Shown here: piece by piece, positions 9,953 through 33,812 of the stretch
Layout of the letters: every line of letters starts with the position of its first letter
Position numbering within the stretch: the first letter of the stretch is position 1
NCBI GenBank assembly: GCA_022511185.1
Contig: JAFLSA010000005.1
Coordinates: 1 to 33,812, forward strand
DNA: 33,812 nucleotides
Direction of reading: 5' to 3'
Source: Eubacterium sp.
GTDB lineage: Bacteria; Bacillota; Clostridia; Oscillospirales; Acutalibacteraceae
Made by a program: the position numbers and the translations under genes
The notes under the pieces: model-generated
Database searches by the model: none
Seen by the model: the letters and a program-made list of their open reading frames with translations, nothing else
What the model was told of the DNA's origin: nothing

Positions 9953-10127
9953 AAATTTTCCCTTCTTTAAAAAGTTTCTTTGTGCATATTGTATAATAAT
10001 TTTTAACTTCAGTCAACACTATATTGATAATTTTAACAATTATTTTTTTATCTTAATAAAATTTATGCGTTATTTGTACCTTTTTATACGTAAAAAGACA
10101 ATGCAGAAAATATGAAAATAAACAAAT

Positions 10128-10166
10128 AACCACTAACAGAGAGCTTTGTTAGTGGTTTTATTTTTT
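10128..10166 (+). terminator. Hairpin plus T-tract on the plus strand with no annotated upstream plus-strand gene
   Basis: AACCACTAACA-gagagctt-TGTTAGTGGTT followed by ttatttttttg. Confidence 0.6.
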
Positions 10167-10173
10167 TGCATTA

Positions 10174-10203
10174 TTGGCAAATATTTGCAATTTAATATAT
10201 AAT
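10174..10203 (+). promoter_or_regulatory. Predicted promoter of the 24-aa peptide mRNA
   Basis: TTGGCA (10174-10179), 18-bp spacer, TATAAT (10198-10203). Confidence 0.6.
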
Positions 10204-10287
10204 CATTTTGGATAAGGAAAACTACCATTCACGGTAGGCGGTTAAATCTTACCCCACCCCTGCAAAGGGTAAAGGGGGGTGTTAATT

Positions 10288-10362
10288 ATGGATTATCTTG
10301 TTATTATGGCAATAATTATTATTGTTTCAACAGGCTACATAATTACAATAAAAAAGAAGTAA
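10288..10362 (+). CDS. 24-aa hydrophobic peptide MDYLVIMAIIIIVSTGYIITIKKK, candidate type I toxin
   Basis: ATG 10288 to TAA 10360-10362; strong SD-like GGGGGGTG a few nt upstream; one transmembrane-like stretch and a Lys tail; embedded in a convergent promoter/terminator arrangement. Confidence 0.6.
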   Translation: MDYLVIMAIIIIVSTGYIITIKKK

Positions 10363-10436
10363 TCGCCTCTCCCAAAGTTGATTACTTCTTTTAATTAACC
10401 ACAGGGGCTAACCGTCTATCGGCAAGCTCCTCATCT
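10345..10436 (-). ncRNA. Candidate antisense small RNA convergent with the 24-aa peptide gene
   Basis: Minus-strand promoter TTGACA-N17-TAATAT just upstream, predicted start about 10436, internal hairpin GGAGCUUGCCG-AUAGA-CGGUUAGCCCC, ends at the terminator at 10352-10392; no ORF of note. Confidence 0.6.
10352..10392. terminator. Shared bidirectional terminator of the peptide mRNA and the small RNA
   Basis: AAAAGAAGTAATC (10352-10364), 15-nt loop, GATTACTTCTTTT (10380-10392); perfect 13-bp arms. Confidence 0.8.
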
Positions 10437-10442
10437 GCTTTC

Positions 10443-10471
10443 ATATTATCATATGAATTTTATTTTGTCAA
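10443..10471 (-). promoter_or_regulatory. Near-consensus promoter of the small RNA
   Basis: Minus strand TTGACA (10471-10466), 17-bp spacer, TAATAT (10448-10443). Confidence 0.75.
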
Positions 10472-10494
10472 CACAACTCTAATGTGGTGTTTTT

Positions 10495-33597: not shown

Positions 33598-33633
33598 AAG
33601 CAGTCTTAAGTCCAATAGGACGAAAGACTGCTT
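33598..33633 (-). terminator. Regulated terminator of the aspS T-box leader
   Basis: AAGCAGTCTT ... AAGACTGCTT followed on the minus strand by ATTTTATTT. Confidence 0.85.
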
Positions 33634-33812
33634 CCGTGGTACCACCTAAATTAGCTGTAAAATATAAATACAACTCACTCTAAGAATTAACGCTTCACAC
33701 ACGCCCGATTCTACTGGCTTAGGGACGAACCCTAACACTTTCTTCCGGGAACTCATAGGTGTTTTTCACTGACTGCTTATACTGTCTTTCACCAACCGAC
33801 AGCTCTCTGAAA
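33598..33812 (-). promoter_or_regulatory. T-box riboswitch upstream of aspS (5' base of stem I lies outside the window)
   Basis: Minus strand AGGTGGTACCACGG (33647-33634) T-box sequence, downstream terminator, and the stem I motif CAGAGAGCTGTCGGTTGGTGAAAGACAG near 33812. Confidence 0.93.

Follow-up and report, generated by a model that had tools for sequence, protein, structure and literature searches.

A candidate type I toxin-antitoxin module with a par-like layout in a Eubacterium sp. chromosome and its relatives in Clostridia

Background

In the par/Fst (RNAI-RNAII) systems of pAD1 and its relatives, two convergent RNAs end at a shared bidirectional terminator, the antisense RNA pairs with the Shine-Dalgarno (SD) region of the toxin mRNA, that region is also sequestered intramolecularly, and the product is a short hydrophobic peptide with a charged tail (PMC7472228). 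The Staphylococcus aureus SprG1/PepG1 system has as its antitoxin SprF1, an RNA with a ribosome-binding, purine-rich 5' end (PMC8158120). Catalogues of known type I systems cover gut Clostridia poorly; a 2019 review reports that when homologues of the known toxins of this type were sought in silico, Clostridia gave almost none (PMC6563280). Here we analyse an element at positions 10174-10471 of a 33,812-nucleotide stretch of Eubacterium sp. DNA (contig JAFLSA010000005.1; the whole stretch is called the window), which has these par/Fst traits in common, SD pairing and SD sequestration being predicted here. With a probability of roughly 85%, we read it as a chromosomal type I toxin-antitoxin (TA) module that is par-like in layout but is not Fst. 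A TA-like module of convergent, par-like layout had been proposed in an earlier note made from the sequence alone, and comparative evidence strongly supports that proposal, since the antisense RNA is conserved and has a predicted promoter of its own, the peptide open-reading frames (ORFs) are under purifying selection, sister loci carry Hol_Tox peptides and SD pairing favours cognate partners. Transcription of the two RNAs and toxicity of the candidate peptide are predictions from sequence.

Results

Layout of the element

Both promoters, the leader hairpin, the SD, the 24-codon ORF and the 13-bp terminator described in the earlier note were all found in place when the sequence was read. The parts are:

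10174..10203, plus strand: promoter of RNAI, the toxin-candidate mRNA, TTGGCA-N18-TATAAT (TTGGCA 10174-10179, TATAAT 10198-10203), 11/12 consensus
10210..10287, plus strand: RNAI leader GATAAGGA, inferred transcription start site (TSS) about 10210, hairpin CTACC/GGTAG at 10222-10237
10232-10244, plus strand: leader core CGGTAGGCGGTTA, inverted-repeat copy of the RNAII 5' domain
10250-10255, plus strand: cis anti-SD TACCCC in the RNAI leader, predicted to pair with the SD
10274..10281, plus strand: SD region GGGGGGTG, predicted to base-pair both with 10250-10255 (in cis) and with RNAII (in trans)
10288..10362 (stop included), plus strand: 24-codon toxin-candidate ORF MDYLVIMAIIIIVSTGYIITIKKK, stop TAA 10360-10362 within the terminator stem
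10352..10392, both strands: shared bidirectional intrinsic terminator, 13-bp perfect stem 10352-10364/10380-10392 with a 15-nt loop
10349..10438, minus strand: RNAII, predicted antisense antitoxin RNA of about 90 nt, inferred TSS near 10436, covariance-model match
10403..10413, minus strand: RNAII recognition segment GGUUAGCCCCU, predicted to pair with the RNAI SD and spacer
10443..10471, minus strand: RNAII promoter TTGACA-N17-TAATAT (TTGACA 10471-10466, TAATAT 10448-10443), 10/12 consensus with a TG-extended -10

The peptide, as read from the sequence, has 24 residues, a single membrane span and a lysine tail, and the stop codon of its ORF falls within the 5' arm of the common terminator. 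RNAI and RNAII overlap in antisense over about 50 nt in the terminator region, and the predicted folds of both beat dinucleotide shuffles (RNAI z -2.8, RNAII z -3.7).

A conserved RNAII marks a family of loci

Searching 60 related genomes by blastn with 10160-10480 returned diverged copies, several per genome, and the loci that were read had a common order of sigma-70 promoter, leader, SD, short hydrophobic lysine-tailed ORF, terminator at the stop codon and convergent RNAII. A motif built from RNAII only, with no peptide sequence in the query, had at least 119 matching stretches among GTDB genomes, mostly of Lachnospiraceae, Ruminococcus, Eubacterium and other Clostridia, and a hydrophobic ORF lay opposite most of them. 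A covariance model of RNAII with 96 positions (R1), whose E-values are rough, matched the window copy at 73.1 bits (E 1.2e-11) and thereby the minus-strand small RNA of about 90 nt that had been proposed; no other convincing copy was present in that genome. The model detected copies in 41 of 81 genomes of the genus (1-13 copies each), in 84 of 298 genomes and 53 of 148 genera of the order, and in 22 of 399 genomes of the phylum. The search for further loci that the earlier note had suggested recovered the whole arrangement in over 100 diverged loci, so the arrangement is real and not chance.

Some loci hold several copies, with tandem arrays of five RNAII copies in L283 (G150:C1:290700-292900) and four in L329 (G712:C1:1810900-1812700), each over about 2 kb, two adjacent module copies in L048 with similar promoters and different peptides, and two RNAII matches of opposite orientation in L057. 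The motif was also present on contigs labelled as Bacteroides or Phocaeicola metagenome-assembled genomes (L076, L119), possibly mislabelled or misbinned. Searches of plasmid and phage DNA gave no credible match and 2.9 million viral contigs yielded only 2 stretches, so that, within these searches, phages are not the main carriers of the family. PADLOC returned nothing convincing. A sub-threshold Gut-1 RNA match (RF01706) at 1008-1090 of L064 was set aside as adjacent upstream repeat hairpins, separate from the module.

RNAII is predicted to be a gene with its own promoter: scored on upstream sequence outside model R1, its sigma-70 -35/-10 hexamers reached at least 10/12 consensus in 104 of 111 loci, compared with 1 after shuffling. 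The RNAI promoter did so in 43 of 77 loci (1 shuffled). On family average, the RNAII promoter looks the stronger of the two from its sequence and, being nearer consensus across the family, would probably leave RNAII in excess. The stem of the shared terminator carries compensatory changes, seen as covariation among 32 loci. An AGG-type purine motif, often the SD-like AAGGAG, lies near the RNAII 5' end in 93 of 111 loci and also occurs in many RNAI leaders.

The peptide ORF is conserved as a coding sequence

An SD-led hydrophobic ORF of 17-60 residues that ends at the terminator accompanied 146 of the 187 RNAII matches, whereas the identical search on the other side of RNAII (the mirrored control) found one in only 1 of 182. 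In the central 90% of loci, 10-11 nt separate the stop codon from the 3' end of the RNAII match. K or R is present among the last four residues of 110 of the 111 non-redundant peptides. Values of dN/dS were 0.09 in the MDILGL group, 0.20 in the MLTIEGL group, 0.34 in the MVTY Hol_Tox-like group and 0.42-0.43 in the TGYI group, that of the window, with pN<pS in 290 of 300 pairs. Judged by these substitution patterns (dN/dS 0.09-0.43), the ORFs are under purifying selection.

Sister locus L077 matched the Hol_Tox family (PF16935) at 29.2 bits (cut-off 23.3). Of 38 diverse peptides, 11 had a Hol_Tox match at E<=0.1, and some sister peptides had weak sub-threshold similarity to the models of PepG1 (S. 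aureus) and ComI (B. subtilis). The peptide groups give the impression of being unrelated, which string-similarity clustering could not prove, as it lumped most peptides into shared clusters.

RNAII faces a broken or missing toxin-candidate ORF in L049 (1499-1590), L142 and L295 (505-604), as expected of orphan antitoxins. The earlier note had named frameshifted ORFs beside a conserved RNA structure as a pattern that would speak against a TA module; such a pattern exists in a minority of decayed copies, and an intact RNAII beside a broken ORF is expected where the toxin decays ahead of its antitoxin.

RNAII is predicted to pair preferentially with the cognate SD

RNAII contains a strongly conserved GACGGUUAGCCC with complementarity to the SD and spacer. 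In the set of 111 non-redundant loci, the predicted SD-RNAII duplex was more stable between cognate partners (-13.52 kcal/mol) than between non-cognate ones (-12.66 kcal/mol), a preference equalled in 0 of 5000 permutations and, with one locus per peptide cluster, in 1 of 5000. Matching changes were seen on the two sides, with GGAGG as SD and CCUCC in RNAII (L009, L013, L020) and GGGGGCG with CGCUCCC (L055). In the window, the predicted helix has 11 bp and one bulge, joins RNAI 10276-10279 and 10281-10287 to RNAII 10413-10403 (-12.3 kcal/mol), and extends over the SD and spacer up to the AUG. The figure of about 6 nt of complementarity outside the terminator, given previously, was therefore too low, and the pairing mechanism left open with it likely consists of terminator-loop contact together with RNAII GGUUAGCCC on the SD.

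Several results weigh against this reading of the locus. The cognate preference was weaker within peptide clusters (161 of 5000), and the permutations do not fully remove relatedness among loci. Taken alone, the window helix does not stand out from those formed with shuffled partners, the support coming from the family statistics. Within multi-copy genomes, cognate SD pairing was not significantly above that of paralogues (15 of 23 genomes, p = 0.19). The ORF filter failed for 41 of the 187 RNAII matches, some of them decayed copies and some real ORFs that the filter lost. Finally, the window peptide has no match in Pfam or NCBIfam, in agreement with the earlier failure to recognise it as a member of a named family.

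The idea that the SD helix keeps paralogues orthogonal was dropped on the p value of 0.19; as SD pairing does not separate paralogues, any specificity would probably come from the terminator loops, which are divergent. A long-range pairing of leader GGCGGUUA with the terminator arm (UAACCGCC) was likewise dropped, being suggestive in the genus set (21 of 5000) but not in the wide set (z -1.2), and pairing of the RNAII core with the terminator gave no signal in either set.

The leader resembles the RNAII 5' domain

In the window, leader CGGTAGGCGGTTA recurs in inverted orientation in the RNAII 5' domain (inverted repeat I3). Across loci, the leader and RNAII core of the same locus share sequence far above other pairings (z 12.8), a likeness that could owe something to gene conversion between the arms. 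The leader was also predicted to pair better with its own SD than with other SDs (0 of 5000 permutations), and the predicted SD pairing probability was 0.85 with the own leader as compared to 0.71 with shuffled leaders. In these models, the leader probably occludes the SD in cis.

Genomic context

The element sits between a sporulation-sigma-like (sigG-like) gene and an EF-G-like gene. In a sister genome (G061, locus L198), the corresponding two genes flank an intergenic region of 128 bp that lacks the element, the missing segment being:

10052..10490, boundaries approximate: segment absent from the empty site of the sister genome, between the sigG-like and EF-G-like genes

A different ORF occupies that site in G011 (L197), and the element was not seen at the other loci examined downstream of the corresponding sigma gene. 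Gain in the window lineage is the simplest reading of these comparisons, loss elsewhere being a possible alternative. Just 5' of the RNAI promoter, at 10128-10157, is another strong hairpin that resembles a terminator, with 13 pairs followed by a T-run; it belongs to the segment missing at the empty site and may insulate the module. An Rfam scan of the window placed no family over the element, and its sole above-threshold match was a T-box leader (RF00230, 101.7 bits) at 33613-33812 on the minus strand, upstream of an aspartyl-tRNA synthetase-like gene.

Discussion

Proposed mechanism and alternatives

The 24-residue peptide encoded by RNAI would probably damage the membrane when in excess, and RNAII would be transcribed towards RNAI, probably in surplus. 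Because the terminator is common to both, the terminator hairpins of RNAI and RNAII are fully complementary, and first contact would probably be made between them. RNAII GGUUAGCCC would next cover the SD and spacer and block ribosome loading, a step supported by the cognate-favouring pairing. The leader, a paralogue of the 5' domain of RNAII, would occlude the same SD, which the folding statistics support, and keep new mRNA silent until RNAII binds. Once RNAII is exhausted, mRNA that escapes would be translated. We suggest more tentatively, at somewhat less than even odds, that one conserved regulatory chassis, made up of mRNA leader and antisense RNA, is coupled to several unrelated peptide toxin families in Clostridia, with toxins being swapped and the leader, as a cis antitoxin, competing with RNAII for the SD.

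The regulatory design could be right and the product be a non-toxic small membrane peptide, a regulator or stress peptide, under a cis-encoded antisense RNA. Small membrane peptides can serve other roles and the TGYI peptide of the window has no named family, but sister loci that share this RNAII and leader encode Hol_Tox peptides, the PepG1 and ComI similarities, weak and sub-threshold as they are, point the same way, and the patchy, multi-copy, site-variable distribution fits TA modules better, which makes a harmless product unlikely. A true par/Fst locus with a diverged peptide would account for the convergent promoters, bidirectional terminator, cis SD occlusion and charged tail, and YUNR is present in the RNAI terminator loops of 41 of 111 loci (21.6 when shuffled), the predicted window loop, CTCCCAA, being without it. 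However, the window peptide contains no proline and hence no PxxxG, it has no match to the Fst model, the inverted repeat I3 is present in the window where DRa/DRb direct repeats were not found, and some sister peptides are Hol_Tox, so that this origin is very improbable. The likeness to par/Fst drawn in the earlier note stands for the convergent layout and shared terminator and does not extend to the peptide motif, the Fst profile and the direct repeats. A palindromic repeat scattered through the DNA, or a structural RNA, with an incidental ORF, as the palindromic layout, the variable copy numbers in the genus and some broken ORFs might suggest, is scarcely credible given the mirrored control, dN/dS well below 1 and the near-universal K/R tail.

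Relation to known systems

With the Fst motif and DRa/DRb lacking and the window peptide in no family, the element is a type I TA candidate that would work like par, not a member of Fst or Hol_Tox. A large gut-Clostridia family of such pairs is apparently undescribed so far: novelty was judged against Rfam, Pfam, NCBIfam and open-access papers, and the open-access literature (subscription papers and T1TAdb being outside the search) gave neither a description of the family nor its core sequence strings. Because conservation lies in RNAII and not in the peptides, an RNA-first search brings up candidate loci by the hundred, and RNAII therefore offers a handle for annotating such modules. If toxins have indeed been exchanged, the family is a natural experiment on antisense regulation surviving that exchange.

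Unlike in par/Fst, the leader and RNAII here are inverted-repeat copies, the stop codon lies inside the terminator, and the predicted RNAII has about 90 nt as opposed to about 40. Hol_Tox (PF16935) peptides are encoded opposite the same RNAII at several sister loci, whereas the window peptide does not match that family. The purine-rich 5' end of SprF1 resembles the AGG-type motif of RNAII, for which ribosome binding may be proposed only by analogy. The txpA/RatA, bsrG/SR4 and bsrE/SR5 pairs of B. subtilis likewise pair at their 3' ends, and SR4 also affects the bsrG SD (PMC6562991). Pairs of the txpA/RatA type overlap over 100-140 bp, in contrast to the about 50 nt of terminator here and the short helix that the 5' domain of RNAII is predicted to form with the SD, and the BsrG/SR4 model (RF01412) had no match in the window and a sub-threshold one in L024 (26.1 bits, cut-off 55). 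In yonT-yoyJ/SR6 of B. subtilis, the 5' region of the antitoxin likewise pairs with the toxin ribosome-binding site (PMC6562991); SR6 acts on two toxins through two regions, whereas here there is one toxin candidate per locus.
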